DNA from: Microtetraspora glauca | GTDB lineage: Bacteria; Actinomycetota; Actinomycetes; Streptomycetales; Streptomycetaceae | NCBI GenBank assembly: GCA_000721275.1 | Contig: JOFO01000081.1 | Location: 1 to 23,703, forward strand | Direction of reading: 5' to 3' | DNA: 23,703 bases | Shown: in pieces, positions 2,739 to 21,782 of the stretch | Layout of the letters: each line of letters starts with the position of its first letter | How positions within the stretch are numbered: position 1 is the first letter of the stretch | Program-made: the position numbers and the translations under genes | Notes under the pieces: model-generated | Told to the model about the DNA's origin: nothing | The model's database searches: none | The model's input: only the letters and a program-made list of their open reading frames with translations

Positions 2739-2842
2739 GGCGGGGCTCCTGTTGCGTGCGTGCGTACGTGCGGGCGGGTGGCGGGAGGCGGGTGCGGCCT
2801 GGGCTTGGCCGTACGGTGCGGCCGGGGCGGCCTGATGGCGGG

Positions 2843-4177
2843 TCAGACGGTGAGCGGCGCGGCGGACGGGTGCGCGCGGCCGGCGGGGTCGTCGGGTGGA
2901 CCGGCGGCGGGGTCGCGCCGGCCGTCGTAGCGGGCGGCCACGTGCCGCAGGGCGGTGAGCAGGCCGTCGGCGGTCAGCGGGGCGGCGTCGGCGGCGGCGT
3001 CGGGCCGCAGGGGCATGGCGCCCGTGCGGGCCCAGCGGAGGCGGCCGGACGGGTCGATGAAGCCGAGGGAGCGGCCGGGGTTGTCGGGGTGCAGGCAGAA
3101 GGGGACGTCGAGGAGGCCGCGGGCGAAGGCGTCGGGCAGCGCCCGGGCGAGGTCGGGGTGGAGGTCCAGGACGGCTTCCACGAGGGCGCGGGCCTCCAGG
3201 TAGACCTCGCTGTCGGCGGCGCCGTCGGGGCCGGGGGCCTCTTCGAGGGCGGCGGCCGCGGCGGCGGTCTCCAGGGCGCGGACGTTCTCGTCGACGGTCG
3301 GGATGCGGTGGGCCTCGGCGGCGGTCTTGACGATGAGCCGGCCGGCCCCGGCGCGGACCGCGAGCCGCGCGGAGTCCTCCAGCAGGCGGAGCGCGCCGCG
3401 CTCGGTGCGCGGGTAGACGCCCATGTACGTGTAGAGGACCACGTGGCGTTCGACGTCGGCGGGGAGGAATTCGGCGGCGAGCCGGCCCAGGGCGCGCAGG
3501 GCCTCCTCGTCCTGGCCGGGGTGCGTCTGCTGGGCGTAGCTGAGGGAGACGCTGCGGAGCCCGTACCGGACGAAGAAGAGGCATTCGAGGAGGCTGGTGG
3601 CGACGAGCAGGCCGGGCGGGCAGAGCTGGCCGAGAAGGCAGCCGCCGAAGCTCTCCAAATGCGGGGTGGAGCCGGGCCGGGCGCCTTCGGCGAGCAGGGC
3701 GCAGGCGCGGGCCCAGGCGGCGACCGCGTCGCGGAGCGGGGTACGGCCGTAGGGCAGGCAGTAGGAGACGGGGCCGCCCTCGGTGGCGTCGAGTCCGGCC
3801 GCCAGCAGGGCGCGGACGATGGGCTCGGGGCGGGCTGAGCCGTGCCGGACCTGGACGGGGAAGGCGGCGCCGTGCAGTCCGTCGAGGACGGCGCGGGTGG
3901 TGGCCGGCGGGTGGGCGGCGATCGGGTAGCCGTTGAGGCGGGTGCCGTCGGCGACGGCGGCGCGGGCGCCGGCCAGGTCGCCGACGCGGGTGTAGCTGTC
4001 GACGGTGAGGGTGCCGGCGGTGTGCGCGGTGGCGGCTCGGGTGCGGGCGAGGCCGTCGCGCATCGCGCGGGGGTCGCCGAAGCCCATGCGGGGCTGGACG
4101 ACGAGCCGGCCGGCGGCGGCCGAGGCCGTGACGAAGGCCCCGAAGGAGGAGGCCGGCCCGGCGGGGTGCGCGGTCAC
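2843..4177 (-). CDS. glmE: Glutamate (methylaspartate) mutase epsilon/large subunit
   Basis: A 444-residue protein matching the catalytic TIM-barrel subunit of adenosylcobalamin-dependent glutamate mutase (EC 5.4.99.1), which interconverts L-glutamate and (2S,3S)-3-methylaspartate. Recognisable segments are VVQPRMG (Arg30), LNGYPIAAH (81-89), VQVRHG (Arg111), EGGPVSYCLPYGR (133-145) and TYMGVYPR. The arginines match the family's substrate-clamping arginines and Glu133 the conserved glutamate beside them. The start is the GTG at 4177, which overlaps the small-subunit stop as GTGA and gives a near-family length (clostridial GlmE is about 480). The Gly/Ala/Pro-rich tail from about residue 420 is likely disordered. 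In actinomycete NRPS clusters such as friulimicin this enzyme pair supplies 3-methylaspartate, and I infer the same role here. Confidence 0.93.
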   Translation of the reverse strand: MTAHPAGPASSFGAFVTASAAAGRLVVQPRMGFGDPRAMRDGLARTRAATAHTAGTLTVDSYTRVGDLAGARAAVADGTRLNGYPIAAHPPATTRAVLDGLHGAAFPVQVRHGSARPEPIVRALLAAGLDATEGGPVSYCLPYGRTPLRDAVAAWARACALLAEGARPGSTPHLESFGGCLLGQLCPPGLLVATSLLECLFFVRYGLRSVSLSYAQQTHPGQDEEALRALGRLAAEFLPADVERHVVLYTYMGVYPRTERGALRLLEDSARLAVRAGAGRLIVKTAAEAHRIPTVDENVRALETAAAAAALEEAPGPDGAADSEVYLEARALVEAVLDLHPDLARALPDAFARGLLDVPFCLHPDNPGRSLGFIDPSGRLRWARTGAMPLRPDAAADAAPLTADGLLTALRHVAARYDGRRDPAAGPPDDPAGRAHPSAAPLTV

Positions 4178-4584
4178 GCGGGGACCTCCGTACGGGCTCT
4201 GGCGGCGAGGAAGCAGCGCAGGGCCGCGAGGTCGTCGCCGAGGACGGCGTCGCAGCCGGCGTCGAGGAGCTGGGCGACGTCGTCGTCCTGGCGGTGGCCG
4301 GCGACGCCGAGCTTGCCGCCGAGGACGACGGGCAGGGCCGCGAGGGCGGGTTCGGCGCGCAGCCGGCGGACGGCGGCGAGGCCGTCGCGGTAGCCGTGGC
4401 CGTTGACGCTGCTGAGCACCACCGCGTCCGGCGCGTGCCGCCGGCAGGCGTCCGCGAGGAGTTCGGCGTCCACGCAGGGGCCGAGCCCGACGACCTCGTG
4501 CCCGAGCTCCTCCAGGAAGAGCCGGAGGTACACCAGATTCCACGTATGGGAGTCCGAGGCGGTCCCGCTCAAGAGAATCTTCAT
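4174..4584 (-). CDS. glmS: Glutamate (methylaspartate) mutase sigma/small B12-binding subunit
   Basis: A 136-residue cobalamin-binding Rossmann-like protein, the usual length of the small subunit of glutamate mutase. It starts MKILLSGTASDSHTWN: Asp11 and His13 correspond to the DxHxxG motif whose His coordinates cobalt, with the glycine replaced by Asn16, a form I associate with actinomycete homologues. Other B12-fold landmarks are VVLSSVNGHG (55-64) and LGGKLGVAG (88-96). It binds adenosylcobalamin together with the epsilon subunit, encoded immediately downstream with a four-base overlap. This glmS is unrelated to glucosamine-6-phosphate synthase. There is no convincing ribosome binding site before ATG 4584; instead a TATTCT hexamer sits at -12 to -7, suggesting a leaderless transcript. 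Confidence 0.93.
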   Translation of the reverse strand: MKILLSGTASDSHTWNLVYLRLFLEELGHEVVGLGPCVDAELLADACRRHAPDAVVLSSVNGHGYRDGLAAVRRLRAEPALAALPVVLGGKLGVAGHRQDDDVAQLLDAGCDAVLGDDLAALRCFLAARARTEVPA

Positions 4585-4590
4585 GTCTGA

Positions 4591-4616: not shown

Positions 4617-4683
4617 GGGGAAGTGGGAGCGGCAGCAACGACCGGCACTTTCCCATTTCGAGGGAATTCCGGGAGGGGTACGG

Positions 4684-4727: not shown

Positions 4728-4748
4728 CGCGGGAAGTCCGCGGGAGGG

Positions 4749-4964
4749 TCAGGCGTACTGGGCGACGAGGCTCCGGGGGCGGATGTCGGTCCAGTGGGCG
4801 GTGATGTACTCCAGGGCTTCTCCCCGGTCGCCGGGGCCCCAGACGCTGGTCCAGCCGGCCGGGACGGCGGCGAAGGCCGGCCACAGGGCGTGCTGTCCCT
4901 CGTCGTTGACGACGACGTGGAAGGGGTTCTCGGCGTTGTCGAAGGGGTTGACGGAATCGCTCAT
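4749..4964 (-). CDS. MbtH-like NRPS accessory protein
   Basis: A 71-residue MbtH-family protein. These small proteins bind NRPS adenylation domains and are often needed for their folding or activity. The family pattern is clear: NPFD at the start, HALWPAF (26-32), PAGW (36-39), a G residue before ALEYI, and the C-terminal WTDIRP (58-63). Its ATG at 4964 overlaps the TGA of the large NRPS gene (ATGA), and GAGGAA lies six bases upstream, so the two are probably translated in coupled fashion. It is expected to serve the cluster's A domains, and the divergent or unaccompanied ones are obvious candidates. Confidence 0.95.
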
Positions 4965-7900
4965 GACTGGTTCCTCGATTCTTTCTTCTGGAGGGCGGAG
5001 AGCTTCTCCGCGACGATGTTCCCGATGTGTGCGAGTGGTTCCGGTTCGGCGAGGTGGAGATGGCCGTGGTCGAGCGTGTGGTTCTCCACGATTCCTTCGG
5101 TGAAGGGAATCCAGGTGGCGGCGAGGGCGCCTTCGGGCTCCCCCGGCCTGCGGGCGGTGAAGAACAGGAGGTCGGTGTCGGCGCGGCCGGGGACGTGCCG
5201 GGCCATCAGCTCGGCGTGGGTCTCGGAGGCGCGGAGCACGGCGCGGAGTTCGGCGGTGGAGAACCCGGCGAGGACGGGGTCCTCGCGGCGGATCCGGTCC
5301 ATCGCCTCGGCCGGGTCGCCGGCGGGCCGGGCCGCGGTCTCCTCGGGCGGCAGTACGGACACGCTGCCCGGGCCGGTCTGGTGGACGTCCATGAGGGCGA
5401 GCAGTTCGACGCTCTCGCCGGCCTCTCGCAGCCGGACGGCCATCGTGTGGGCGACGAGGCCGCCGAAGGACCAGCCGAGGAGCCGGTAGGGCCCCCAGGG
5501 CTGGACGCCGCGGATCCGCTCCAGGTAGGCGTCGGCCATCTCCTCGACGCTGCCGGGGCGGTGGCCGGGGTCGCTGAGCGCGCGGGCCTGGAGGGCGTAC
5601 AGCGGCTGCTCGGGGCCGAGGTGTCGGGCGAGGCCGGCGTACGCCCAGCCGACGCCGGTCCCGGGGTGGACGCAGAAGAGGGGGCGGCGGGACCCGGCGG
5701 GGCTGAGGGGCAGGAGCACGCCGAGGGCGGAGGCCGTCGCGCCGGTCTCCGGGCCGTCCTCGCCGAGGAGGCCGGCCGGGGTGGGGGCGCGGAAGAGGTC
5801 GCGGACGGTGCGCTCGACGCCGAGGACGCCGCGCATCCGGTTGACGAGGCGGACGCCGAGGAGCGAATGCCCGCCGAGGGCGAAGAAGTTGTCGTCGACG
5901 GTGACGCGGGGAACGTCGAGGATCTCCGCGAAGAGCGCGCAGAGGACTTCCTCGCGGGCGTTGCGGGGCGCGCGTCCGCCCGGGGTCGCGGCGGGCCGGC
6001 CGGGGGCGGGGAGCGCGGCCCGGTCGGGCTTGCCGTTGACGGTGAGCGGCAGGGCGTCGAGGACGACGACGGCGCCGGGGACGAGGTGTTCGGGCAGCAA
6101 CCGGCGGGCCTCGGCGAGGAGTTCGGCCTCGGTGACGGCGTCGCCGGCGCGCGGGACGGCGTAGGCGACGAGGCGCTTGTCGCCGGGGCGGTCCTCGCGG
6201 ACGACGGCGAGGGCCTGGCCGACGGCGGGGTGGGCGGCGAGGACCCGTTCGACCTCGCCGGGTTCGACGCGGACGCCGCGGAGCTTGATCTGCCCGTCGG
6301 CCCGGCCGAGGAAGCGGAGTTCGCCGTCCGGGGTCCACAGGACGCGGTCGCCGGTGCGGTACATGCGGCTGCCGTCGGCCTCGAACGGGTCGGGCACGAA
6401 GCGTTCGGCGGTGAGGCCGGGGCGGCCGGTGTAGCCGCGGGCGACGTGGCCGCCGGCGATGTACAGCTCGCCGGGGACGCCGGGCGGGACGGGGCGCAGC
6501 GCGTGGTCGAGGACGTGGCTGCGGGTGTTGTCCATGGGCCGGCCGAGGTGGAGGCCGGCGCCGGTCAGGGTGCGCTGCCCGGTGGTGAACCACTGGTTGT
6601 GCGAGGCGAAGGTGGTCTCGGTGGGGCCGTAGGAGTGCACGAGGACGGTGTCGGGGCAGTGGGTGAGGACCCGCTGGACGGCGGCGGGCGAGGCGACGTC
6701 GCCGCCGGTCCACACCTCGCGCAGCAGACGGAGGGTGTCGAGTCCTTCGTCGGCCATGACGTGGAAGAGGCCGACGGTGAAGTAGGCCGTGGTGACGCCG
6801 TGCGCGCGGACGGTCCGGTCGGTCTCGGCGAGGTCGGTGCCGTCGCCGCGCATGAGGACGAGGGTGCCGCCGGACAGGAGCGGGGCCCACAGTTCGAAGG
6901 CGGAGGCGTCGAAGCCGGTCGCGGAGTGGACGAGCATCCGGCGGCCGGGGCCGAGGGAGACGTCGCGGTCGGCGGCGAGTTCGACGAGGTTGCGGTGGGT
7001 GACGCCGACGCCCTTGGGCCGTCCGGTGGAGCCGGAGGTGAACATGACGTAGGCGAGGTCGTCCTCGGAGGCGTCGCCGGCGGTGCCCGGGGCGAGGGGG
7101 CCGGTCCCGTCCGTGTCGACGCGCAGCACGGGTACGCCCTCCGGGGCCGTGTGGTGCCGGTCGGTGGCGACGAGCCGGGTGCCGGAGTCCTCCAGCATGA
7201 GGCGGACGCGTGCCTCGGGGAGCCGGGGGTCGAGCGGCAGGTAGGCGGCGCCGCTCCGGAGGACGGCGAGCGCGGTGACGACGAGCGGGACGCCGCGGTC
7301 CAGGAGGACGCCGACGGTGTCGCCGCGGCGGACGCCGGCGGCACGGAGCCGGGCGGCGAGGGCGTCGGCGCGGGCGTCGAGCTGCCCGTAGGTGACGGTC
7401 TCGTCGTCGGTGACGAGGGCGGGGGCCTCGGGGGCGCGGGCGGCGCGGCGGGCGATGACGCCGTGCACGGTGCCCCGTTCGGCCGGGACGGTGGCGGTGT
7501 CGTTGTGGTCGCCGGTGAGCCGGAAGCGGTCGGCGTCGGTGAGGAGGGGCAGGTCGCCGACGCGTACGGCGGGGTCGGTGGCGACGGCGCGCAGGGTGCG
7601 TTCGAGGTGGGCGGCGAGGAGGGCGGCGGTGGGGGCGTCGAAGAGGTCGGTGGCGTATTCGAGTCCGCCGGTGAGGCCCGCGGGCCGGCCGTCGGGGCCG
7701 CGCCGCTCGGTGAGGGCGAAGGTGAGGTCGAACTTGGTGGTGACGGTGGTGAGGAGGGCGGGCCCGTCCTCGCGGAAGAGGCCGTGCGCGGCGGCGGCGC
7801 CGGGGACGCCCCGCGTGTAGTCGTGGTGGAGCTGGACGACGATCTGGGCGAGCGGGTGGTGGGCGGTGGTGCGCGGCGGGTTGAGGTGTTCGACGACCCG

Positions 7901-10900
7901 GTCGAAGGGGAGCTCCTGGTGGGCGTAGGCGGCGAGGTCGGTGCGCCGGACGCGGTCGAGGAGTTCGGTGAAGGCGGGGTCGCCGGAGGTGTCGGTGCGC
8001 AGGACGAGGGTGTTGACGAAGAAGCCGACGAGTCCGCCGAGGTGGTCGTCGTCGCGGCCGGCGGTCATGGTGGCGAGCGGCAGGTCGGTGCCGGCGCCGT
8101 GCCGGGTGAGGACGGCGGCCAGCGCGGCCTGGAGGACCATGAAGAGGGTCGCTCCGCCGCGGCGGGCGAGGGCTTCCAGGGCCTCGTGGGTGGCGGCGTC
8201 GACGCTGACCGGGGCGTGTGCGCCGCGGTGGCTCGCCTCGGCGGGCCGGGGACGGGCGACGGGCAGGTCGAGGGCGGCCGGGGCGCCGGCGAGGGTGTCG
8301 CGCCAGAAGGCGCGGTGGGCTTCGGCGCGGGAGCCTTCGAGGAGGTCGCGCTGCCACAGGGTGTAGTCGGCGTACTGGACGGGCAGCGGGTCCCAGCCGG
8401 GCGCGCGGCCGGCGGCGCGGGCGGTGTAGGCGGTGGCGAGGTCGGCGAGGAGCGGGCCGGTGGACCAGCCGTCGGCGGCGATGTGGTGGACGAGGAGGAC
8501 GAGGACCTGTCCGGAGCCGTCGTCGGGGGTGAGGAGGGCGGCCCGGAGCGGGGTCTCCTCGGCGAGGTCGAAGACGTGGCCCGCGGCGTCGGCGGCGGCG
8601 TCGGCGAGCCGGGCGGCGGGGACGGTACGCACGTCGAGGGCGGGGCGGACGCCGGTGAGGACGTCCTGGTGGGGCTCGCCGTCGACGGCGCGGTAGCGGG
8701 TGCGCAGCACCTCGTGCCGGTCGGACAGGTCGGCGAGCGCGGCGGCGAGGGCGGCCGGGTCGAGGGGGGCGGCGGGGCGCAGGACGAGCGGGATGTTGTA
8801 GGAGGCGCTGGGGCCTTCGAGGGTGTCGATGAACCAGAGGCGGCGCTGCGCGTAGGAGAGCGGCAGGCGCTCGGAGCGGTCGGCGCGGGCGACGGGCCGG
8901 AGTCGCGGCGCGGTGCCGGGCGCGTCGCCGGCGGGCTCGGGGTCGGCGGGGGCACTGATGCGCCGGGCGAGGGCGGTGGGCGTGGGGGCGAGGAGGAGGT
9001 CGCGGACCTGGACGTCGGCGCCGAGCCGGGCGCGGATCCGGTTGGCGAGGCGGACGCCGCTCATGGAGTGGCCGCCGATGGTGAAGAAGCCCTCGTGGGG
9101 GCCGACCGCGTCGAGGCCGAGGACGTCGGCGAAGAGGGCGCGCAGGGTGTCGACGAGCTCCCGGTCGGCGGGATCGCCGGCGGCGGCGTCCGCGTCCGGC
9201 GGGGTGCCGGGCGCGGCGCCGGCGCGGTCGCGGCGGGCGTCGAGGGCGCGCCGGTCGGCGGCAGGGACGAGGTCCTGGTCCGTGACGGGGGCGGCCGGGT
9301 CGTCGGCGGCGGCGCGCAGTGCGGTGTCGAGGGCGGCGAGGAGGAGCCGGGGGACGTCGTCGTCGAGGACGTCGCGGGCGTATTCGAGGCCGAGGGTGAG
9401 TCCGGCTGGGGCGCCGTCGGCGTCGCGGTGGTCGACGCAGGCGGCGGTGAGGTCGAACTTGGTGGTGGCGGGTCCCTCCTCGGCCGGGAAGCGGCCGGTG
9501 AGGCCGCCGAAGGGGAAGGTCTCCGGGTCGGGTCCGGCGGCGCGGAGGGTGAGCATCACCTGGAAGAGGGGGTGGACGCCGGGGGTGCGGGGCGGGTTGA
9601 GGTGTTCGACGAGCAGGTCGAAGGGGAGCCGCTGGTGGGCGAAGGCGGCGAGGTCGGTGTCGCGGACGCGGTCGAGGAGGTCGGCGAAGGCGGGCGCGCC
9701 GGTGGTGTCGGTGGGCAGGACGAGGGTGTTGACGAAGAAGCCGACGAGGTCGTCGAGGGCTTCGTCGTCGCGGCCCGCGACGGGGGTGCCGAGGGCGAGG
9801 CGTTCGCCGGCGCCGGCGGCGCGCAGGGCGAGGGCGAGGGCGGCCTGGAGGACCATGAGGAGGCTGGCGTCGTGGTCCTCGGCGAGGCGGAGGAGCCGGG
9901 CGTGGACGGCGGGTTCGAGGCGGGTGGTGACGAGGCCGCCGGCGTGGTCGCGGAGGGCGGGCCGGGGCCGGTCGAGGGGCAGCGGGGTGACGGCGGGCAG
10001 GGCGCCGAGGGCGTCCCGCCAGTGGGCGAGGCCCCGGCCGGCGACGGAGCCGGGGTCGTCGGGGTCGCCGAGCACGTCGTGCTGCCAGAGGGTGTAGTCG
10101 GCGTACTGGACGGGCAGCGGTTCCCACTCCGGTGCGCGGCCCGCGGCGCGGGCGGCGTAGGCGGTGGCGAGGTCGGTCATGAGCGGGGTGAGCGACCAGC
10201 CGTCGCCGGCGACGTGGTGGAGGAGGACCGCGAGGGTGGCGCCGGGGCCGTCCTCGGGGAGGAAGACGGCGACGCGCAGCGGGAGTTCGCGGGCGAGGTC
10301 GAAGGTCTCGGCGGTGAAGCGGGCGACGAGGCCGGGCAGGGCGTCCGCCGGGGCGTCGACGGTCCTGAGGCGTACCGCGCTCGCGGCGAGGACGTGCTGG
10401 TAGGGCTCGTCGTCGGGGGCGAGGAGGACGGTGCGGAGTGCTTCGTGGCGTTCGGCGAGGTCGGTGACGGCGGCGGCGAGCGCGGCGCGGTCGGGGGCCG
10501 TGTCCAGGTGGAGGACGATCGGCATGTTGTAGGCGGCGGAGGGGCCGTCGAGCTGGTTGACGAGCCAGAGGCGGCGCTGGGCGTGGGAGAGCGGCACCCG
10601 CTCGCCGGCGGGGAGCGGGTCCTCGTGGACGACGGGGAGCCGGGGGTCGGTGGTGCGGAGCACCTTGCGGTTGATCTTGCCGGAGCTGGTGCGCGGCAGG
10701 GCGACGACGATCGAGACGGCGGGCACGGCCGCGGCGGGCATCCGCTCGCGCACCCGGTCGCGCAGTTCCTCGGCGCCGGTGCCGCCGTCGGTGACGACGA
10801 AGGCGACGAGGCGTTTGACCCCGTCGGCGTCCTGCTGGGCGACGACGGCGGCCTCGCGGACGGCGGGGTGTCCGGCGAGGACGGAGTCGACGGCGGCGGG

Positions 10901-12088
10901 GTCGATGCGCTGGCCGCCGATCTTGACCTCGTCGTCGAGGCGTCCGTGGTAGAGGATCTGGCGGTCGTCGCCGACGGTGACCAGGTCGCCGGTGCGGTAG
11001 GCGCGTGCGCCGTCGAGCTCGGTGAAGCGGCGGGCGTTCAGTTCGGGCCGGTGGAGGTAGCCGCGGGTCAGGCCGCCGCCGAGGAGCCAGAGTTCGCCTT
11101 CGACGACGGCGGCGCGCACGCCGGGGAGGGGGCGGCCGATGGGGACGGGTCCCGCCTCGTGCCGGGTGAGGTCCGCGACGGTGGCGACGACGGTGGTCTC
11201 GGTGGGCCCGTAGGCGTTGAGCAGCCGGACGCGGTCGCCGACGAGGCCGCGCCACTGGGCGATCCGCTCGGGCAGGGCGGCCTCGCCGTAGATGATGACG
11301 GTGCGCAGCGCCGCGGGGAGCCGGACCGCGCCGGTGGTGAGGACGTAGACCAGCTCGTGCCAGTAGGCGGCGGGCAGGTCGAGGAGGGTGACGCCGGTCC
11401 GCTCGCAGCCGGCGAGGAGTTCGCCGACGTCGAGCATGTCGTCGGTGCGCAGCACGAGGGTGCCGCCGGCACCGAGGACGGTGAAGACCTCCTGGATGCT
11501 GGCGTCGAAGTGCAGCGGGCTGAACTGCAGGACGCGGGAGTCGGCGTCGATGCCGTACGCGGGGGTGGCGCCGGCGATGAAGTGGGCGAGGGAGTCGTGG
11601 GCGACGACGACGCCGTTGGGCACGCCGGTGGAGCCGGAGGTGTAGATGACGTACGCGGCGCCCTCGCCCGCGCCGGGTCCGTCGAGGACGAGCTCGCCGT
11701 GGCGGGCGACGTCGGCGGGCTCGGGGGCGGCGTCGCCGCAGGCGTCCCGGAGGATGGCGGCGTTGCGGGCGTCGGGGGCCTGCACGTCGAGCGGCAGGTA
11801 GGCGGCGCCGGTGGTGAGGACGGCGAGGAGGCCGACGATCGCGTCGATGCCGCGCGGCCGGTGGAGCGCCACGAGACGGCCGGGTCCGGCGCCCTGGGCG
11901 GCGAGTTCGGCGGCCCGGGCGCGGACGGCGGCGCCGAGTCCGGCGTACGTCAGGTGCGCGTCGGCGTGGACCAGGGCGACGGCGTCGGGGCGGGTGCGCT
12001 CCTGGGCGGCGATGAGGTCGAGCACCGGCGGCGCGTCGGCGGGAGAGGGTCCGCCGTCGAGCAGGTCGTCCGTTCTGCTGCGGGGCAT
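4961..12088 (-). CDS. Nonribosomal peptide synthetase, A-C-T-C-A-T-TE (terminal)
   Basis: A 2,375-residue terminal NRPS. Domains: A1 about 1-475 ([31 protein letters not shown]); C about 495-930 with HHVAGDG near 624; T with GGHSM, phosphopantetheine Ser1008; C about 1073-1510 with HHIAADG near 1200; A2 about 1510-2025 ([22 protein letters not shown]); T with GGHSLLG, Ser2075; type I TE about 2105-2350 with GWSFGG (Ser2207) and a DHGHLHL histidine region near 2343. No carrier follows A1, and the first C-T pair has no A domain between, so either the module is rearranged as A-C-T or A1 loads in trans. Specificity codes read by eye are DAQDIYAVVK (A1) and DAFYWGSFAK (A2); I cannot assign either. 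The TE releases the peptide by hydrolysis or cyclisation. No epimerisation domain is present. ATG 12088 is chosen over upstream in-frame codons because of its GGAGG. Confidence 0.93.
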
Positions 12089-12096
12089 GCTGAGTT

Positions 12097-12101
12097 CCTC
12101 C
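12097..12101 (-). promoter_or_regulatory. Ribosome binding site deciding the start of the A-C-T-C-A-T-TE gene
   Basis: GGAGG (minus strand) lies eight bases before ATG 12088. The frame is open upstream to 12394, which would run through the terminator hairpin and into the previous gene. The residues encoded there are Pro/Arg/Ala-rich and unlike any NRPS domain, while the first A-domain motif follows naturally from 12088. Confidence 0.8.
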
Positions 12102-12154
12102 GGTAAGGGGCGGGAGACCGGGGCGAACGGTTCCTCTCGCCTCCGTGACCACCA

Positions 12155-12180
12155 CGCTAGGGGCGGCCGCCGCCCGTCCG
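12155..12180 (-). promoter_or_regulatory. Possible promoter for the terminal NRPS-mbtH unit
   Basis: Between the terminator hairpin (12193-12232) and the NRPS start at 12088 a new promoter is expected. On the minus strand TAGCGT (12160-12155) fits TAnnnT. The best upstream candidate, CGGACG (12180-12175), is a poor -35 match with short spacing. A 10-bp palindrome GGCGGCCGCC lies at 12162-12171. The untranslated leader would be about 60 bases. Weak. Confidence 0.2.
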
Positions 12181-12192
12181 GGGCAGGAGACG

Positions 12193-12232
12193 CGGCAGCT
12201 CCGGGCGGCAGATGCGCCGCCCGGAGCTGCCG
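12193..12232 (-). terminator. Strong hairpin terminator after the C-T-C-T-C-T NRPS
   Basis: A perfect 17-bp inverted repeat, 12193-12209 paired with 12216-12232, with a 6-base loop, lying 13 bases past the TGA of the upstream NRPS gene. No T-run follows, which is common for Streptomyces terminators. It may also attenuate rather than fully stop read-through into the next NRPS gene. Confidence 0.75.
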
Positions 12233-12245
12233 GTGCGGGGGCCGT

Positions 12246-15200
12246 TCAGCGGCCGGTGCGGGTGCCCGCCCGGGTGCGCCGCTTGAGCGCGGGGGCCGGC
12301 ACCGGGGGGCGGGGCGGCCCGGCGGGGCCGTGGGCGCGCGGCTCGCCGGGGGTCCGGGGGGCGCCGCCGGCGCGGGTGCCGTCCGGGGCCTCACGGGTGC
12401 CGGGGGCCGGCTCGCCGAGCAGCCGGGCGAGGGCCGTGGCGGTCGGGTTGCGGAAGACGTCCCGCAGGGTGAGGTCCTGGCCGAACTCGACCCGGATCCG
12501 GTTGAGGAGCCGCACCGCGAGCAGCGAATGCCCGCCGTTCTTGAAGAAGTTGTCCCCGCGGCCCACGTCCCGGCCGCCGAGGACGTCCCGGAAGAGGGCG
12601 AGCAGCCGCTCCTCCCGGGCGCGGGCCGGGGCCTCGTCCTCCGGCCCGGATGTGGCCGCGCCGGGCCGCGCTCCCCCGCCGCCGATCACGACCCGGGCGG
12701 GGGCCAGGTACTCGGGGAGCCGCCGCTCGGCCCAGGCGCGCAGCTCCTCCTCGGTGACGGCGGCGCCGGGCGCGCGGGCGACGGTGGCGTGCAGCCGGTC
12801 GTCGTGGACGGCGACGGAGACGCCGGTGACGGCCGGGTGGGAGAGCAGGGCCTCCTCGACGCGCCCGGGTTCGACGGCGTAGCCGCCGGCGGTGAGGACG
12901 GCGACGGGCCGCAGGGTGCCGTCGGCGGCGGCGTACGCCCTGCGGCCGGTGGCGCGCAGTCCGCCGCCCGGTGCCGGGACGTGCACCTCGCCGGGGACGC
13001 GGACGGGTGCGGGCCGTCCGCGCTCGTCGAGGACGGTGCCGTGCGCCGACGGCGACGGTGCGCCGGTCGTGTAGCGGGGGGCGGAGAGCGGGGCCGCGGG
13101 GTCGGCGGCGAAGGCGTCGAGGGTCTCGGCGAGGCGCGCCGCGAGAAGACGGGCGGTGCCGGCGTCGTACAGGGCGGTGGCGTACTCCAGGACGCCGCGC
13201 AGTCCGCCGGGGGCGCCGTCGGGGCCGGTGAGTTCGGTGAGGGCGAAGGTCAGGTCGCTCTTGGCTCCCGTACCGGTGAAGGCGACGGGGTCGCCGTCGA
13301 GGACGGACGGGCCGCGGCCTGCGGTGTCGGCGGCGTGGACCTGGAGCATGACCTGGACGAGCGGGGCGTGGGCGGCGGAGCGCTGCGGGCTGAGGTGCTC
13401 GACCAGACGGTCGAAGGGCAGGTCCTGGTGGCTGTAGGCGGCGAGCCCGGACTCGCGGACCCGGTGGACGAGGTCGGTGAAGGCGGGGTCGCCGGACGTG
13501 TCGGTGCGCAGGACGAGGGTGTTGACGAAGAAGCCGACGAGCGGGTGGAGGTTGTGGTCGGCGCGGCCGGCGACGGTGGTGCCGAGGGCGATGTCGGTGC
13601 CGGCGCCGTGCCGGGTGAGCAGGGCGGCGAGGGCGGCCTGGACGACCATGAAGAGGGTGGCGCCGTGGGCGCGGGCGGTGCGCAGCAGCGCCTGGTGGGT
13701 GGCGGCGCCCACCTCGAAGCCGGTGAGGGCGCCCCGGCCGTCGGCCTCCAGCGGGCGGGGGCGGTCGGTGGGGAGGGCGAGGAGCGGCGGCATCCCGGCG
13801 AGGGCGGTGCGCCAGTGGGCGAGTTGCGCGGCGGCGACGCCGGGGGTGCCGGGTTCGCCGTCGGTGCCGGGGGTGCCGTCGAGCAGGTGGTGCTGCCAGA
13901 GGGTGTAGTCGGCGTACTGGACGGGGAGCGGCGGCAGGGCGCGTGCGCGGCCGGCGGCGCGGGCGCGGTAGGCGGCGTCGAGGTCGGCGAGGAGGCAGGC
14001 GGTGGACCAGCCGTCGCCGGCGATGTGGTGGACGAGGAGGACGAGGGTCTGCCGCTCGTCGGCGTCGGTGACGAGCGTGGCCCGGAAGGGGATCTCGGCG
14101 GCGAGGTCGAAGACGTGTCCGGCGGCGGCGTCGACGGCGGCGCGGACGGCCTCGGGTCCTTCGGCGCGGATCTCGTCGAGGACGGGGGCCTGGTCGTCGA
14201 GGACCAGCTGGTACGGCTCTCCGTCGGCGTGCCGGTAGACGGTGCGGAGCACTTCGTGCCGGGCGGCGGTGTCGGCGAGCGCGGCGGAGAGGACGGCCGG
14301 GTCGAGCGGGCGGTGCAGGCGGGTGACGACGGGGATGTTGTAGGTGGCGCTGGGACCTTCGAGGCGGCCGACGAACCAGAGGCGGCGCTGGGCGGCGGAG
14401 AGCGGCAGCCGGGCGGGTCGCCGGGCTGCGGGGACCGGGCGGAGGGCGGGGCGGGCGGGGTCGTCGCCGTGCTCGTCGAGGCGGCGCAGCAGCGTCTTCG
14501 GGGTGGGGGCGAGGAAGACGTCGCGGATCGCGGCCGGGAGGCCGAGGGTGCCCCGCACCCGGTTGGCGAGCTTGCCGGCGAGGAGGGAGTGGCCGCCGAG
14601 CTTGAAGAAGTTGTCGTCGGGCAGGACGGTGTCGCGGCCGAGGAGTTCGGCGTAGAGGCCGCGGAGGATCTCCTCGCGGGGGTCGCGGGACGTGGTCTCC
14701 CGGCGGCCCGGCGCGTCGTCGGCGCCGGTGGCGGTCTCGCGGGCGGCGTCGAGCGCCGCGTGGCGCCGGTCGAGGTCGCTCCGCTGGGCGTCGGTGGTCC
14801 AGGCGACGGCACTCAGGGGTGTGTCCCCGGGCTGTGCGGCGAGGGTCGCGAGGGCGTGGCGGAAGAGGCCGAGGAGGAGGTCGGCGGTGCCGGCGTCGTA
14901 CAGGTCGGTGGCGTACTGGAGGCCGAGGAGCAGCGGGCCGGGGGCGCCGTCGGCGTCGTGGCTGCCGGAGCAGTGGAAGCTCAGGTCGAACTTGGCGCTG
15001 CCGAGGTCGGCTCCGTCGAGGACGGCGGGGACGCCGCCGAGGGTGGCGGAGTCCTCGCGCCGCTCCTGGGCGCTGACCATGACCTGGAAGAAGGGGTGGC
15101 GGCCGAGGGAGCGCTCGGGGTTGAGGTCTTCGACCAGGAGGTCGAAGGGCAGGTCGTCGTGGGCGAAGGCGGCGAGGTCGGCGTCCCGGACCCGCCGGAC

Positions 15201-18200
15201 GACCTCGGCGAGGGTGGGGTCGCCGGAGAGGTCGGTGCGCAGGGCGAGCGTGTTGACGAAGAATCCGACGAGGCCGTCGAGCGCGTCGTCGGGCCGGCCG
15301 GCGACCGGGGCGCCGACGACCTGGTCGTCGCCGGCGCCGGCGGCGCGCAGCGCGAGCGCGAGGGCGGCGCGGACGACCATGAAGAAGGTGGCGCCGGATT
15401 CCCGGGCGAGCGCGGTGAGCGCGCGGTGGGTCTCCGCGTCGAGCGCGGCGGTGGCGAGGGCGCCGCGGCCGCTGGGCTCGGTGCGGCGGGGCCGGTCGGC
15501 GGGGAGCCGGGTCTCGGCGGGGGCGCCGTCGAGGGCTTCGCGCCAGAAGTCGAGGCGCTGCCGCAGGAAGGCGCCGTCGGGGGCGAGGAGTTCGCGCTGC
15601 CAGAGGGTGTAGTCGGCGTACTGGACGGGCAGCGGCTGCCACTCCGGCGCGCGGCCCTCGGCGCGGGCCGTGTAGGCGGTGTCGAGGTCGGCGAGGAGGC
15701 GGGCGGTGGACCAGCCGTCGGTGGCGATGTGATGGACGGCGAGCACCAGGACCGCGCCGTCGTCGCCGTCGGTCGTGAAGAGCCGGGCGCGGAGCGGGAG
15801 TTCGCGGGTGACGTCGATCGGGCGGCGGGCGAACTCGGTCATCCGGTCCTGGAGTTCACCGGCCGCGCAGACGGTGGTGCCGACGGGGACGGCGGGGGCG
15901 GCGGTGACGGACTGGTACGGCTCGCCGTCGACGGCCGGGTACACGGTCCGCAGCACCTCGTGCCGGTCGAGGACGTCGCGGAGCGCGGCTTCGAGGACGG
16001 CCGGGGCGGGGCGGGCGGCGAGACGGAGGACGACGGGCGCGTTGTAGGCGGCGGAGGGGCCTTCGAGCCGGCCGAGGAGCCACAGGCGGCGCTGGGCGAA
16101 GGAGAGCGGCAGCCGGTCCGGGCGGCGCGCGGCGGGGACGGCGCGCAGGACGGGGCGCGGGGTTCCGCCGCCCTGCCCGTCGAGACGGCGCAGGAGCCGG
16201 CGCGGGGTGGGGGCGAGGAAGACGTCGCGGATCGCCGCGTGGAGGCCGAGGACGGACCGGACCCGGTTGGTGAGCCTGCCGGCGAGGAGGGAGTGGCCGC
16301 CGCGCTTGAAGAAGTTGTCGTGGGCGAGGACGGTGCCGGTGCTGCCGAGGACTTCGGCGAAGAGGCCGCGGAGGATCTCCTCGCGCGGGTCGGCGGCCGG
16401 TCCGGCGCCGGGGGCGCCCTGCGGCCACGGGTCGGGGCGGTGCTCCCGGCCGTCGGCGGCGAGGGCGCGGTGGCGCCGGTCGAGGCCGGCCCGCTGCGCG
16501 TCGGTGAGGAGGGTGACGTCGCTGACGCGGGTGGTGCCGGGGCGCTCGGCGAGGGCGGTGAGGGCGGCGCCGAGGAGGCCGAGGAGGAGGCCGGCGGTGT
16601 CGGCGTCGTACAGGTCGGTGGCGTACTGGAGGCCGAGGAGGAGCCCGGCGGGCTCGCCGTCGGCGCCGGTGCGCTCCTGGCAGTGGAAGGAGAGGTCGAA
16701 CTTGGCGGTGGCCAGGTCGGCCTCGTCGAGGACGGCGGGGACGCCGCCGACGCGCACCTCCCGCGGCTGCCCGGCGTGCGCCGCGACCATCACCTGGAAG
16801 ACGGGTTGGCGGCCGAGGGAGCGCTCGGGGTTGAGGTCTTCCACGAGCAGGTCGAAGGGCAGGTCCTCGTGGGCGAAGGCGGCGAGGTCGGCGTCCCGGA
16901 CCCGCCGGACGACCTCGGCGAGCGTCGGGTCGCCGGAGAGGTCGGTGCGCAGGGCGAGCGTGTTGACGAAGAACCCGACGAGTTCGTGCAGGTCCTCCTC
17001 GGGCCGGCCGGCGACGGGGGTGCCGACGACCTGGTCGTCGCCGGCGCCGGCGGCGCGCAGCGCGAGCGCGAGGGCGGCGCGGACGACCATGAAGAAGGTG
17101 GCGCCGGAGCCCCGGGCGAGGGCGGTGAGCGCCCGGTGGGTGGCGGCGTCGAGGTCGGCGGTGGCGAAGGCTCCCGCGTGGGTCGGCTCGGTGGGGCGGG
17201 GCCGGTCGGCGGGGAGCCGGGTCTCGGCGGGGGCGCCGTCGAGCGCCGCGCGCCAGTGGGCGAGCTGTTCGTGGGCGGTGCTGCCGGGGTCGCCGGGGTC
17301 GCCGAGCATGTCCCGCTGCCAGAGGGCGTAGTCGGCGTACTGGACGGGCAGCGGCTCCCACTCCGGCGCGCGGCCCGCGGCGCGGGCGGTGCAGGCGGTG
17401 TCGAGGTCGGCGAGGAGGCAGCCGACGGACCAGCCGTCGGTGGCGATGTGGTGGACGGCCAGCACCAGGATCGCCGGCTCCTCGCCGTCGGTCTCGAAGA
17501 GGCCGACGCGCAGCGGGAGTTCCCGGGTGACGTCGATCGGGGCGCGGGCGAACTCCGTGGCCTGCCCGTCCGCCTCGCCGGCCGCGCACCGGAAGGTCTC
17601 GACGGGGATCCGGACGTCGTCGAGGATCCGCTGGTGCGGCTCCTCGTCCACGGCCGGGTAGACGGTGCGGAGCACCTCGTGCCGCGCCACCACGTCCCCC
17701 ACGGCCGCCTCCAGGACGGCCGGGTCCGGCCGGGTGGCGAGGCGCAGCACCACGGGCGCGTTGTAGGCGGGGGACGAGCCCTCCAGCCGGTTCATGAACC
17801 ACAGGCGGCGCTGGGCGTAGGACAGGGGGATCACGGTTGCTGCCTCTCTGGAGGTGCGGGGGCGGGCGGGTGGGCCTGCGGCGGGGGGCGCGGGGGGGCG
17901 ACCGGCGGGCAGGGATCCCGCGCGGGCGTCCGCTCCCCGATGGGGGCGGCCACGCCGCGGGGGGGGGGCGTCGGGGCCGAGGGTGGCGGCGCCGAGGACC
18001 TGGGTCCAGACACGGGCGATGAGTTCCTCGGCGGGGCCGGTGAGGCCGGTGCCGCCGGCGGGGGCGGCCCCGGCGGGCGCGCCGGGCGCGGGCGCCTCGG
18101 CGCGGGTGGGCAGGGCGGCCCGGTCGAGCTTGCCGCTGGGGGTGGTGGCGAACCGGTCCACGGCGACGAACGCGGACGGCAGCATGTAGGCGGGCAGGGT

Positions 18201-19793
18201 CGCGGCGAGCGCGGTGCGCAGCGCGTCGGCGTCGCCGCCCCGGTGGTAGGCGAGCAGGGCGGGGTTTCCGGCGGCGTCCTCGCCGAGGACGACGGCGGCC
18301 TCGGCGACGCCGTCCTGCCGGGTGAGGGCGGCCTCGATCTCGGGGAGTTCGATGCGGTGCCCGCGGAGTTTGACCTGGCCGTCGGCGCGGCCGAGGTAGA
18401 CGAGGCGGCCGTCGGGGAGGAGGCGGCACCGGTCGCCGGTGCGGTAGGCGCGGGCTCCGGCGGCGGCGTCGGGCGCGGGGTCGGCGACGAACCGCTCGGC
18501 GGTCAGGGCGGGCCGGTTGCGGTAGCCGCGGGCGACGCGGGGGCCGGCGAGGTACAGCTCGCCGGTCTCGCCGGGGGCGACCGGGGCGAGCCGGTCGTCG
18601 AGGAGCCGCGCCGACAGGCCGGGCAGGACGGTGCCGATGTGCGGCTGTCCGGGGCGGTCGATCCAGCCGGCGGTGGCGTCGACGGTGCACTCGGTGGGTC
18701 CGTACACGTTGAGCGCGCGCAGCAGACCGGAGGCGTGCGCGGCGGCGAGCCGGTCCCACAGGGCGGGGCCGATGGCCTCGCCGCCGACGAGCAGGGTCAG
18801 CGGGCGGGGGCCGCCGTCCGCGGTCAGCAGGTCGAGCAGCGGGTCGGCGTGGGAGGGGGTGATGTCGAGGTCGGTGAGGCCGTGGGCGTCGACGAAGGCG
18901 GCGAGGAGGGCGGGGTCCCGGCGGGTCTCCTCGTCGATCATGACGAGGGTGTCGCCGCGGCAGAGCCGTACCCACTGCTGGACGGAGGCGTCGAAGGACG
19001 GCGAGGCGTTCCAGCCGACGCGGCGGCCCTCTCCGGTGGCGGCGCCGACGCCCTCCAGCTCCGCGAGCAGCAGCGAGGCGGCGCCGCGGCCGATCTCGAC
19101 GCCCTTGGGGCGGCCGGTGGAACCGGAGGTGTAGATGACGTAGGCGAGGGTGTCGGCGGTGACGGGGACGGGCCGGAAGGGGGCGGCGGGGGCGGCGCCG
19201 GGGGCTGTTTCGCCCGCGGTTCCGGTGGCGATCCCGTGGGCGGTTCCGGTGGAGGTTCCGGTGGCGGTTTCGCCGGCGGTGAGCTCCGCCAGGGTGAGGG
19301 TACGGGTGCCGGTGGGGGCCGCGGCGGAGGCGACCGCTTCGTCGGCCTGGACGACGACGAGGTCGGCGCCGGAGTCGGCGAGGAGGTAGGCGCGGCGCTC
19401 GGCGGGCAGCGCGGGGTCGACGGGCAGGTAGGCGGCGCCCGCGGTGAGGGTGCCGATGAGGGCCGTGGCGAGGCCGGCGCCGCGCGGCAGGCAGAGGGCG
19501 ACGACGCTCTCGGGACCGATGCCGAGGGCGGTGAGCCGGGCGGCGACGGCGGCGGCGTCGGCGCGCAGCTCGTCGAAGGTCAGGACCCGGTCGGCGGCGA
19601 CGACCGCGGTACGCCCGCCGGGGGCGGTGGCCAGCCGGGCGAGGAGGTCGGCGTGCCCGGTGCCGGCGGCGCAGCCGGAGCAGGCGCAGGGGGCGGCGCC
19701 GGCGAGGAGGGCGGCCACGTCGGGAGCGGTGGCGGTCTCGGGGCGGGTGGCGGTCGACGCGACGGTGGCGGTCTCGGGGAGGGTGGCGGTCAT
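12246..19793 (-). CDS. NRPS reading frame A(Gln)-[broken T]-C-T-C-T-C-T; probably two genes fused by a frame error
   Basis: As sequenced, ATG 19793 to TGA 12246 is one open frame of 2,515 residues. I think it represents two genes. The first should encode A-T (17831-19793) and the second C-T-C-T-C-T from GTG 17834. Three observations support this. The stretch between A and the first C (about residues 610-650) is a Pro/Arg-rich run with no carrier motif. A run of ten G at 17959-17968 sits exactly where the carrier should be. In another frame the sequence downstream of that run reads [16 protein letters not shown], like the end of a carrier domain, and stops at TGA 17833-17831, overlapping the GTG as GTGA. 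An automatic caller would report the single long protein. The two parts are described as separate entries. Confidence 0.8.
12679..13073 (-). other. Vestigial adenylation domain (C-terminal fragment)
   Basis: About residues 1588-1718 of the C-T-C-T-C-T protein. The fragment keeps faint A-domain landmarks: [11 protein letters not shown] (like GELYVAG), ADGTLRPV (like the A7-A8 stretch), [25 protein letters not shown] (the A8-A9 region, split here by eye) and [11 protein letters not shown]. Everything N-terminal of this, including the P-loop TSGSTG, the specificity pocket and YGPTE, is absent, and the final catalytic Lys motif (GKxDR) is lost. The frame is continuous on both sides with no homopolymer, so this looks like evolutionary decay rather than an assembly break. 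It cannot activate an amino acid. Confidence 0.7.
15101..15400 (-). repeat. Near-identical in-frame repeat, copy in second C domain
   Basis: This stretch, in the C-terminal half of the second C domain, repeats at 16811-17110 with an offset of exactly 1,710 bases (570 codons). Over 15181-15270 I count three differences in 90 bases, and 15312-15398 is identical. It reflects duplication of one C-T module and is a likely site for recombination or misassembly. Confidence 0.85.
16811..17110 (-). repeat. Near-identical in-frame repeat, copy in first C domain
   Basis: Partner of 15101-15400 at an offset of 1,710 bases, in the first C domain of the same protein. The similarity extends more weakly over the whole C-T module, including the carrier domains, which share [11 protein letters not shown] and [11 protein letters not shown]. 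Confidence 0.85.
17843..17849 (-). promoter_or_regulatory. Ribosome binding site for internal GTG 17834
   Basis: AGAGAGG on the minus strand, eight bases before GTG 17834. It would be unnecessary inside a single long NRPS gene, and together with the GTGA overlap it supports a separate start for the C-T-C-T-C-T protein. Confidence 0.6.
19218..19264 (-). repeat. Short tandem repeat encoding a Gly-Thr linker in the Gln A domain
   Basis: GGTTCCGGTGG occurs at 19218, 19242 and 19254 (spacing 24 and 12, in frame). It encodes a TGT-like linker between the A2 and A3 motifs, a surface loop in A domains, so it should not disturb the fold. Confidence 0.6.
19729..19779 (-). repeat. 36-base direct repeat in the leader of the A-T gene
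   Basis: A 15-base unit, GTGGCGGTCTCGGGG, occurs at 19729-19743 and 19765-19779 (period 36, in frame). It gives the repeated PETAT segments in the N-terminal leader, a likely disordered extension. Confidence 0.6.
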
Positions 19794-19803: not shown

Positions 19804-20865
19804 TCACATTCCGTACGGGTGGGCGGAGGGGGCGACGGTCGGGGCGCAGTCCGACAGGGGGACGGGATCGCCCATGGCGACGAGGATCTTGCGGGCGCCG
19901 GTGTACGCCTCGCGTCCGTGCGCGCAGAGGATGTTGTCGACGAGCATCAGGTCGCCGGCCTGCCAGGTCTCGCGGACGGTGACGGCCTCGTAGGCGGCGT
20001 TGACGGCGTCGACCTCGGCGTCGGTGAGGGCGGTGCCGTCGCCGAGCCGGGTGTCGAAGGGCAGGCCGTCGGCGCCGAAGGTCTCGGTGAGGACGTCGCG
20101 GACGTCCTCGTCGAGGCTGCGGGCGTTCCAGAAGGCGAAGTGGTTGAACCAGACGCGCTCGCCGGTGACGGGGTGGGTGACGATCGCGGAGCGGAGCTGG
20201 CGGGTGCGCAGGGTGTCCTCGTCGAGCCATTCGTACCCGATGGAGTGCGCGTCGCAGTACTCCTCCGCGCCGGCCGGGTCGTCGGCGGAGAACGCCTTGC
20301 GCCAGGGCATTCCGGCGAGGTCGGAGTAGTTGCGGACCAGCAGCCAGCCGGCCTGCTCGAAGCGGGCGACGAGCTCCGGCGGGAGGAGGGACAGGGCGCG
20401 GCGCATGTCGCCGACGGTGGTGGCGCCGCCGGTCTCGGGGGCGGTGACGCAGCCGAAGAGGAGGACGCCGGGGAAGTCGAGGGTGTAGCTGTTCTCGTTG
20501 TGCAGGCGGATCGGCTGGATCGCCGGCAGGTCGGTGGAGGAGAAGACGCCCTCGCCGAAGTCGGTGCGCGGGGTGGCCTTCTCCTTGTAGCCGGCACGAC
20601 GGGCGATCAGCGCGTCCCGGGCCTCCCCGAAGGTGCCGGCGTCGGTGACGGGCAGGCCGCGGAGCATCACGGCGCCGGAACGGTGCAGTTCGGCCTGGAT
20701 GTCGGGGCGGCGGGCGGTGAGCCAGGCGGTCGCCTCGGCCATGGTGGCGAAGCGGGGCACCTGGATCAGGGCGGGCTTGCCGGGTTCCCGGACGACGGTC
20801 ACCGCGTCGTCGGCGGCGGCGGTCGTGGCCGGGTGCGGGTGCGGGTGCGGGGCGAAGGTGGTCAT
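19804..20865 (-). CDS. SyrP/TauD-family Fe(II)/2-oxoglutarate-dependent hydroxylase
   Basis: A 353-residue non-heme iron oxygenase of the TauD/TfdA group, closest in style to SyrP-like enzymes that beta-hydroxylate carrier-bound amino acids in NRPS pathways. The iron-binding triad is visible as His122-x-Glu124 (LHNENSY) and His316 (ILCAHGREAY); Arg325 (GARKILVAM) is the expected 2-oxoglutarate ligand. Other family stretches are VMLRG (66-70), PETGGATTVGD and WFNHFAFWN (239-247). Glu in place of Asp in the HxD motif is common in the SyrP branch. The ATG at 20865 has GAGGAA about seven bases upstream; the N-terminus is His/Pro-rich. The Gln A-T gene follows after ten bases, so carrier-bound glutamine is the first candidate substrate, with aspartate or methylaspartate as alternatives. 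Confidence 0.92.
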   Translation of the reverse strand: MTTFAPHPHPHPATTAAADDAVTVVREPGKPALIQVPRFATMAEATAWLTARRPDIQAELHRSGAVMLRGLPVTDAGTFGEARDALIARRAGYKEKATPRTDFGEGVFSSTDLPAIQPIRLHNENSYTLDFPGVLLFGCVTAPETGGATTVGDMRRALSLLPPELVARFEQAGWLLVRNYSDLAGMPWRKAFSADDPAGAEEYCDAHSIGYEWLDEDTLRTRQLRSAIVTHPVTGERVWFNHFAFWNARSLDEDVRDVLTETFGADGLPFDTRLGDGTALTDAEVDAVNAAYEAVTVRETWQAGDLMLVDNILCAHGREAYTGARKILVAMGDPVPLSDCAPTVAPSAHPYGM

Positions 20866-20958
20866 GGCGTTGTTCCTCGTCTTCGGTGGGTGAGCGGCAC
20901 GGAGGCCGGGGAGGCGCGAATCCGGAGGCGGTGGTGGGGCGGCGGGGCTTTCGCGCCC

Positions 20959-20996: not shown

Positions 20997-21782
20997 TCAG
21001 GCCGTGGCGGCGGGGGCCGGGGCGAAGGAGCGCAGGACCGGGTTCAGCCGGGCGAAGAAGCCGGCCAGGTCCTGCTGGAAGTAGAAGTGGTCGCCCGGCA
21101 GGACCTCGGGGACGACGGCGTGGCCCGCCACCAGGGCCCACCCGTCGAGCAGTTCGACCGGGACGATCGGGTCGGCGTCGCCGCCGAGGACGGCGACGGG
21201 GCAGTCGAGCCGCACGTCGGGCGCGGTGCACCGGTAGGCGTCGTCGATGGCGAAGTCGGCCCGGATGGACGGGAGGACGATCTCGCGGAGCTCCGGGTCG
21301 TCGAGGATGCCGTCGTCGGTGCCGCCGCGCTCCTTGATGGCGGCCACCAGCTCGTCGTCGCCGAAGCGCTCCGGGTGCACGGGGGCCTGGTTGGGCAGCA
21401 CGGGCGCCCGGCAGGCGGAGGCGACGAGCCCGAGCGGGGTGTGGCCGGCGGCCTGGAGGGCGCGGGTGACCTCGAAGGCGACCAGGGAACCCATGCTGTG
21501 GCCGAGGACCACCAGGGGGCCGGCGTCCGCCGGGAGGGCTTCGACGACGGGAAGCGCCAGGTCGTCGACGGAGGCGGGCAGATCCTCGCAGTAGCGGGCG
21601 CCGCGGCCCGGGTACTGGCCGATGAGGAGCCGGACGTCGGCCGGAAGGTGCTCGCGCCAGGTGCTGTAGGCGTGGGCGTTGCCGCCGGCGTGCGGGAGGA
21701 CGAGCAGGGACAGGCGGTGCGGCGCGTCACCGGGCAGGTCCCAGACGACGTCCTCGGGCGCGGGGGTGAAGGAAGCGCTCAT
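20997..21782 (-). CDS. Type II thioesterase (NRPS editing)
   Basis: A 261-residue alpha/beta hydrolase of the stand-alone type II thioesterase family. These enzymes remove misprimed acyl groups or stalled intermediates from carrier domains, and some move aminoacyl groups between carriers. The start LLVLPHAGGNAHAYSTW (26-42) and the oxyanion region are typical. The nucleophile is Ser96 in GHSMGS (94-99), and the expected acid and base are Asp202 or Asp204 (LGGDADPIV) and His232 (PGDHFYF). There is no signal peptide, so it is cytosolic. Its ATG (21782) overlaps the upstream NRPS stop as ATGA, so it is translationally coupled. Confidence 0.95.
   Translation of the reverse strand: MSASFTPAPEDVVWDLPGDAPHRLSLLVLPHAGGNAHAYSTWREHLPADVRLLIGQYPGRGARYCEDLPASVDDLALPVVEALPADAGPLVVLGHSMGSLVAFEVTRALQAAGHTPLGLVASACRAPVLPNQAPVHPERFGDDELVAAIKERGGTDDGILDDPELREIVLPSIRADFAIDDAYRCTAPDVRLDCPVAVLGGDADPIVPVELLDGWALVAGHAVVPEVLPGDHFYFQQDLAGFFARLNPVLRSFAPAPAATA

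Follow-up and report, generated by a model that had tools for sequence, protein, structure and literature searches.

Four condensation-carrier units without a working adenylation domain, probably charged in trans, in a conserved Streptomyces non-ribosomal peptide synthetase line

The contig JOFO01000081.1 of Microtetraspora glauca (the window, 23,703 nucleotides) encodes a non-ribosomal peptide synthetase (NRPS) line with four condensation-carrier (C-T) units. A working adenylation (A) domain is absent at the four C-T joins, and the C and T motifs are intact. We consider it likely that the four carriers of this conserved Streptomyces NRPS are charged in trans by two other A domains of the same cluster, called here A1 and A2, probably for the synthesis of a lipopeptide. 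From the sequences and their comparison we infer the trans loading, the substrates, the assignment of A domains to carriers, hydroxylation on A1-T and lipidation.

The window spans an entire contig of a draft genome in 254 contigs; among the loci fetched, its closest relative is from Streptomyces bikiniensis (mutase protein, 94%). In the order of transcription, on the minus strand, it encodes a partial C, a damaged A and a T (23.7-21.9 kb), followed by a type II thioesterase (TE), a TauD-type dioxygenase, two large synthetases (NRPS-A and NRPS-B), an MbtH-like protein, GlmS-like and GlmE-like proteins, an asparagine synthetase A (AsnA) and a glutamate-synthase-like FMN protein. NRPS-A (19.8-12.2 kb) is a stop-free minus-strand open reading frame of 2515 aa (12246-19793) with the order A1, broken T, C-T, C-T, C-relic-T. 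NRPS-B, the terminal NRPS (12166-4964; 12.2-5.0 kb), has the order A2, C-T, C-A-T-TE. The features are as follows.

23142..23699, minus strand: partial C of the upstream canonical module, at the contig end (Pfam PF00668 and HMM from window domains)
22121..23095, minus strand: A of the upstream module, N-terminal half damaged in the contig (readable code DALQYGGGFK)
21872..22063, minus strand: T of the upstream module (domain searches)
21000..21776, minus strand: stand-alone type II thioesterase, GHSMG (PF00975, 6.2e-37)
19807..20904, minus strand: TauD-type dioxygenase (PF02668, 6.6e-41; adjoins A1-T in 22 relatives)
18117..19643, minus strand: A1, adenylation, code DAQDLGVVDK, Glu/Gln (domain searches; code meaning from the accessible part of PMC12283262)
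17969..18070, minus strand: remnant of the carrier of A1, approximate limits (comparison with S. bikiniensis)
16491..17846, minus strand: C of A-less unit 1 (Pfam and HMM from window domains)
16194..16388, minus strand: T of A-less unit 1 (GGHS motif and HMM)
14781..16130, minus strand: C of A-less unit 2 (Pfam and HMM from window domains)
14490..14681, minus strand: T of A-less unit 2 (GGHS motif and HMM)
13059..14426, minus strand: C of unit 3 (Pfam and HMM from window domains)
12621..13058, minus strand: A-domain relic of unit 3 (PF13193; 12-sequence alignment; model and fold search)
12426..12620, minus strand: T of unit 3 (GGHS motif and HMM)
10667..12013, minus strand: A2, adenylation without carrier, fused ahead of C (code DAQDIYAVVK)
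9251..10609, minus strand: C of A-less unit 4 (Pfam and HMM from window domains)
8966..9166, minus strand: T of A-less unit 4, Ser 9065-9067 (GGHS motif and HMM)
7526..8881, minus strand: C of the terminal canonical module (Pfam and HMM from window domains)
6017..7456, minus strand: terminal A, code DAFYWGSFAK (HMM and code extraction)
5768..5959, minus strand: T of the terminal module (HMM from window domains)
4997..5698, minus strand: terminal thioesterase domain (PF00975)
4752..4961, minus strand: MbtH-like protein, 70 aa (PF03621, 8.6e-24)
4177..4590, minus strand: glutamate/methylaspartate mutase small subunit, GlmS-like (PF02310; NF002612 below cut-off)
2846..4261, minus strand: methylaspartate mutase E chain, GlmE-like (PF06368, 8.8e-81; TIGR01503 below cut-off)
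1728..2708, minus strand: asparagine synthetase A, aminoacyl-tRNA-synthetase type (NF005052, 415.9 bits, cut-off 368)
328..1728, minus strand: glutamate-synthase-like FMN protein (PF01645, 6.1e-19)

Three A-less units are found in NRPS-A (12426-17846) and one in NRPS-B (8966-10609). Pfam and HMM searches of the window detected no full AMP-binding domain between C and T in any of units 1 to 4; the C-to-T gaps are 102, 99, 438 and 85 nt, respectively, in contrast with the ~1.57 kb that separate C from T in the canonical last module, by domain coordinates. The HHxxxDG motif is present in all five full-length C domains of the window, including those of the four A-less units, and all four A-less carriers have an intact GGHS motif. 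These results agree with a previous sequence-only reading, which had proposed four C-T units without a functional A in continuous frames, three in NRPS-A and one in NRPS-B; its coordinates, frames and carrier Ser are correct, including the Ser placed at 9065-9067 in NRPS-B, where the GGHS motif begins at 9076. In the six clusters with three such C domains, DNA identity is 76-85% between those of units 1 and 2, versus 67-74% with the third, and units 1 and 2 are thus, judged from their sequences, copies of each other.

We investigated the conservation of this organization with loci from named genomes fetched with the mutase protein. A relative was encoded in 133 stretches, the best 80 of which were kept, and their domains were mapped using HMMs made from the domains of the window itself. 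The window and 28 of the 80 loci encode the NRPS-B order A-C-T-C-A-T-TE in a single frame free of stops, and two more loci (L012 and L028) have the same order with one domain match split in two. The remaining 50 loci are cut by contig ends or belong to other cluster types, such as L031 with ordinary C-A-T modules and L033 with the order C-T-C-A-T-C-A-T-TE. Residues 1-1000 of NRPS-B, used as the query of a protein search, yielded 7718 proteins at E <= 1e-100 among 7970 candidates scored; the best 120 of those 7718 comprise 48 proteins of the order A-C-T-C-A-T-TE, 15 of the order A-C-T-C-A-T-C-A-T-TE, one other with an A-C-T start and 56 of other kinds. When 121 genomes were drawn evenly from the genus, A2 was matched at E <= 1e-120 in 10 of them, that of the window included. 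Four of these matches are only 54-55% identical, and the two that were examined (L142 and L143) are different, A-C-A-T proteins. The first A of these two proteins has neither Asp235 nor a carrier (codes HILCVGINT and HVLCVGINT).

Upstream stretches were fetched for 16 genomes, and the gene for the C-T units of NRPS-A (gene 2) is fully in view in 12 of them in addition to the window. All 12 relatives have two or three A-less C-T units in gene 2. Three C domains are present in six clusters (the window, S. lavendulae, S. tanashiensis, S. litmocidini, CC208A and S. nymphaeiformis) and two in seven; in these 13 clusters the C-T gaps are of 87-114 nt and the last gap of 291-498 nt. Among three further genomes, L137 and L139 have three C domains in gene 2 (L139 is probably the same genome as L025), and L135 has C-T-C-A-T with a dead A. 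In five of the six relatives whose whole line is visible, the modules with a C total eight (4+2+2 or 3+3+2); a constant total of eight modules is not claimed, because S. lavendulae has seven.

The 438-nt join of unit 3 (12621-13058) is not empty, a point that the sequence-only reading had missed. It codes for an A-domain relic of ~146 aa, which the small set of HMMs built from the domains of the window missed and which was detected by Pfam PF13193 (AMP-binding C-terminal domain) at 1.3e-7. By our reading, the relic covers the A6-A9 part and the C-terminal subdomain, and both the A3-A5 core and the A10 lysine are absent. It could be aligned in 12 of the 13 gene-2 clusters, the shorter one of S. 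lavendulae (97 aa) being left out, and PF13193 matches it in the seven clusters tested out of seven, S. lavendulae among them. The predicted structure of the relic with its carrier has a mean pLDDT of 65 and a pTM of 0.43, with ten-residue blocks at 59-89 over residues 1-130, and its best fold matches are NRPS A-T structures. Because the TM-scores are low (~0.3-0.4), the model supports, rather than proves, an A-type fold. In L135, a more distant relative, the module equivalent to unit 3 harbours a full-length A whose A3, A5, A7, A8 and A10 motifs are ruined; this dead A lies between intact C and T (L135:14559-16500, in a 7.27-Mb single-contig Streptomyces genome). The three states can be read as a decay series, from a dead A to a relic of ~150 aa and then to a short relic. 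The full-length dead A in the equivalent module therefore suggests that the A of unit 3 was probably lost stepwise, and unit 3 would have become A-less by the decay of a domain that it formerly possessed.

The cluster has A domains that are not committed to a downstream module of their own, namely A2, which has no carrier, and A1-T, which stands alone in relatives. Of six code strings looked for in the open-access literature, DAQDLGVVD was the only one matched; in the accessible part of a published survey, the A1 code DAQDLGVVDK is said to recognise both Glu and Gln (PMC12283262). All 22 relatives that show TauD and A1 have a T after A1, and in the mapped loci that show both, this T is in a different frame from the next C. 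In relatives A1-T is a separate gene that keeps its carrier; in the window this carrier is broken: compared with S. bikiniensis, ~107 bp are missing at 17968/17969 inside the carrier, beside a run of ten G, and GGHS is gone. This loss fuses A1 to the next C, which belong to two separate genes in relatives. The 'Gln A-T unit' that had been proposed as free to load, which we take to be the A at 18.1-19.6 kb, is indeed free of an ordinary downstream module, but its carrier is broken here, which had been missed. Given the T of the 22 relatives, the lack of a carrier for the A at 18 kb was rejected as a trait of the family.

The TauD protein is likely to be a hydroxylase of carrier-bound Gln. In the type II TE the serine lies in a plain GHSMG motif, as is typical of editing TEs, and a shuttle role for it is therefore a guess. 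TauD with an A-T of Gln-like code also occurs near an AsnA cassette with no A2 protein in view in L039, L058, L063, L068, L073 and L076, which are Nocardiopsis, Lentzea, Kitasatospora and Streptomyces genomes.

The 'carrier-less A1' of the sequence-only reading, which we take to be A2 (10.7-12.0 kb), is confirmed to be carrier-less here and in the 28 of 80 loci that share the NRPS-B order. A2 keeps the core motifs A3, A5, A7, A8 and A10. Its code is DAQDIYAVVK in the window, and DAQDxYxVVK, DAQDGFSVAK or, in the S. lavendulae subgroup, DAEDxGTVVK across the subgroups; the substrate of A2 is not fixed, since the code differs between them.

Midpoint-rooted FastTree phylogenies were calculated for the C and T domains. 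In the C tree, units 1, 2 and 4 share a clade (support 0.994) and unit 3 branches with the terminal C (0.989); a C from the truncated SID9727 locus, which was labelled solely by its position, falls with unit 3. The mean identities to the carrier of A1 are 45-46% for units 1-3, 33% for unit 4 and 44% for the terminal carrier. Apart from a weak grouping of the unit 3 carrier with that of A1 (support 0.637), neither the identity comparison nor the tree revealed a special likeness of the A-less carriers to the carrier of A1. The proposal that one A charges all four carriers, giving repeated residues, is thus not established, as the C tree splits the units three to one and their carriers are no closer to that of A1 than the terminal one.

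In the mechanism that we propose, A1-T, which in relatives is a stand-alone unit next to a TauD hydroxylase and a type II TE, would probably make (hydroxy)Gln-S-T, and A-less carriers would receive this product by transfer or by loading. A2, which is carrier-less in every mapped relative with its order and is fused ahead of a C-T, would act solely on carriers elsewhere in the line. Loading in trans by A1 and A2 would work beside the TauD hydroxylase, the type II TE, MbtH and the glutamate mutase/AsnA cassette.

The absence of A domains might merely reflect the collapse of repeated modules in a short-read assembly. The window does come from a 254-contig draft and has real local losses at 17968 and at 23.09-23.16 kb. 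In the upstream A (22.1-23.1 kb), pieces of ~177 and ~319 nt are missing relative to S. tanashiensis, beside G/C runs; these two losses lie at 23092-23156, and the frame changes between C and A. Like the loss in the carrier of A1, they look more like assembly losses than like lesions of the strain. S. bikiniensis, moreover, has one C-T fewer, in what looks like a C1/T2 hybrid: the first C of its gene 2 (L117) is nearest to C1 of the window (92.9%) and its first T groups with T2, so that this gene appears to have arisen either by recombination or through collapse in the assembly of that draft. However, the local losses of the contig do not fall at the four C-T joins. S. bikiniensis is colinear with the window across the joins of units 2 and 3 (12213-16103, 92.3%) and across that of unit 4 (2818-12235, 96.1%); unit 1 has no counterpart there, yet three C domains are found in five other relatives. 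The 28 of 80 loci that show the A-less NRPS-B order include a complete chromosome, most of the other assemblies being drafts, and a single-contig genome also has A-less units. Since the same A-less gaps recur in many related genomes, they look real. Better assemblies had been expected to reveal full A domains at the joins if the absence were an artefact; independent genomes, including the complete chromosome (L023/L082) and the 7.27-Mb single contig (L135/L136), the lone gene-2 A of which is dead, have no working A there, and the absence holds. Collapse was therefore rejected as the cause for the family on the evidence of the relatives' genomes, and we regard it as extremely improbable.

Real A-less units might also be dead, the growing chain passing over them with no residue added. 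Module skipping is known in NRPSs, unit 3 contains the debris of a lost A, and the number of units differs between relatives. We nevertheless find this improbable, as each of the four units has an intact HHxxxDG and an intact GGHS motif, A-less units are kept in the 12 relatives with gene 2 in view, and C-containing modules total eight in five of six whole-line relatives. If the units are active, A1 alone could load Gln onto all four carriers, with the type II TE and the hydroxylated A1-T as intermediaries; the peptide would then contain consecutive 3-hydroxyglutamine residues, and A2 would serve none of these carriers. The clustering of A1-T, TauD and the TE is in keeping with this, as are the six further loci with TauD-A-T of Gln-like code near an AsnA cassette and no A2 protein in view, but the core motifs of A2 are preserved and no other use for it is visible, the C domains of the four units split into two clades, and carriers 1, 2 and 4 do not group with the T of A1. 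Loading by A1 alone thus seems rather unlikely. Charging by both A1 and A2 remains the reading that we favour. A specific division of labour, in which A2 would be the dedicated trans-loader of units 1, 2 and 4, and A1-T with TauD would give hydroxy-Gln to unit 3, whose decaying A would persist as a structural relic, is put forward tentatively and is itself rather doubtful.

The GlmS-GlmE-AsnA-GltS cassette (328-4590) suggests a building block of the 3-methylasparagine type; among the 80 loci, 50 contain its AsnA gene, and they come from several actinobacterial genera. The B12-binding motif, usually DxHxxG, reads DSHTWN in the GlmS-like protein (4177-4590). A code of the terminal type, DA[FY]YWGSF[AG]K, occurs in 35 of the 50 loci with AsnA in view and in one of the 30 without it (L027, which ends before AsnA). 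The co-occurrence of this code with AsnA is a faint indication that the terminal A may take the product of the cassette, perhaps 3-methyl-Asn.

No paper with this cluster, and hence its product, was found in the open-access literature, largely without subscription papers. No methyltransferase domain was present among the Pfam matches of the NRPSs of the window, most upstream modules lying outside the contig, and the A codes of the window presumably do not specify Ser, as they do not look like it. As described in the accessible parts of PMC10172682 and PMC8211649, lipopeptin holds methyl-Asn and beta-hydroxy-Gln, the residues that the cassette and TauD suggest here, but lipopeptin and neopeptin differ in that they also contain Ser, Ser, Asp, Thr, Glu and MePhe. 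As far as the window codes are readable, the remaining residues of lipopeptin do not fit them.

Several tandem A-less units are known from siderophore synthetases, and we know of no A2-type carrier-less A that starts the last protein in systems of the yersiniabactin/SidC type. The latter resemble our proposal in that one A serves several carriers and differ in their residues; yersiniabactin and fungal siderophore synthetases such as SidC are named in the accessible parts of PMC7539972 and PMC12400406. A-less C-T units served in trans are already known from capreomycin, WS9326A, rotihibin, syringomycin and enduracidin, according to the text available for each. In capreomycin and viomycin, CmnI/VioI is an A-less unit loaded in trans by the A of another module, with an MbtH-like protein, as would be the case here, and CmnA-A1 loads CmnI in trans; it differs in that there is one A-less unit and the A also serves its own carrier, and the part of PMC12400406 consulted describes no A relic or carrier-less A-C fusion. 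The rotihibin system, another Streptomyces lipopeptide line, shares with the window a stand-alone A-T (RthB), a type II TE (RthD) and an A-less C-T (RthA). RthB and RthD were proposed to serve the A-less C-T (PMC8552735, in part), but there is one such unit, the residue is Thr rather than Gln, and loading there is a proposal. For WS9326A (Cal19/Cal22/Cal23), which also has an A-less C-PCP, gene disruption showed that the A-less unit and the trans A domains are needed for the product, with two such domains for one A-less unit (PMC7539972, in part). Missing or dead A domains complemented by a separate A-T are described for syringomycin, albicidin, enduracidin and ramoplanin in the accessible part of PMC8949500, the dead ones being as in L135, but in a single module each. 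The combination of four A-less carriers, a carrier-less A ahead of a C, and an A relic with a dead intermediate was not found in our searches of the open-access literature.

If A1 and A2 do form a shared pool with the division of labour outlined above, C-T units could be gained or lost, as between two and three in gene 2, without a new A, and the length of the peptide would thereby be changed cheaply. This NRPS family comprises numerous natural versions of the same line; several of their carriers are A-less, one A is carrier-less, and the loss of A is graded from a dead domain to a short relic. These natural versions and the graded loss make A-to-T loading and the tolerance of A loss directly testable, and such tests would be usable in NRPS engineering.
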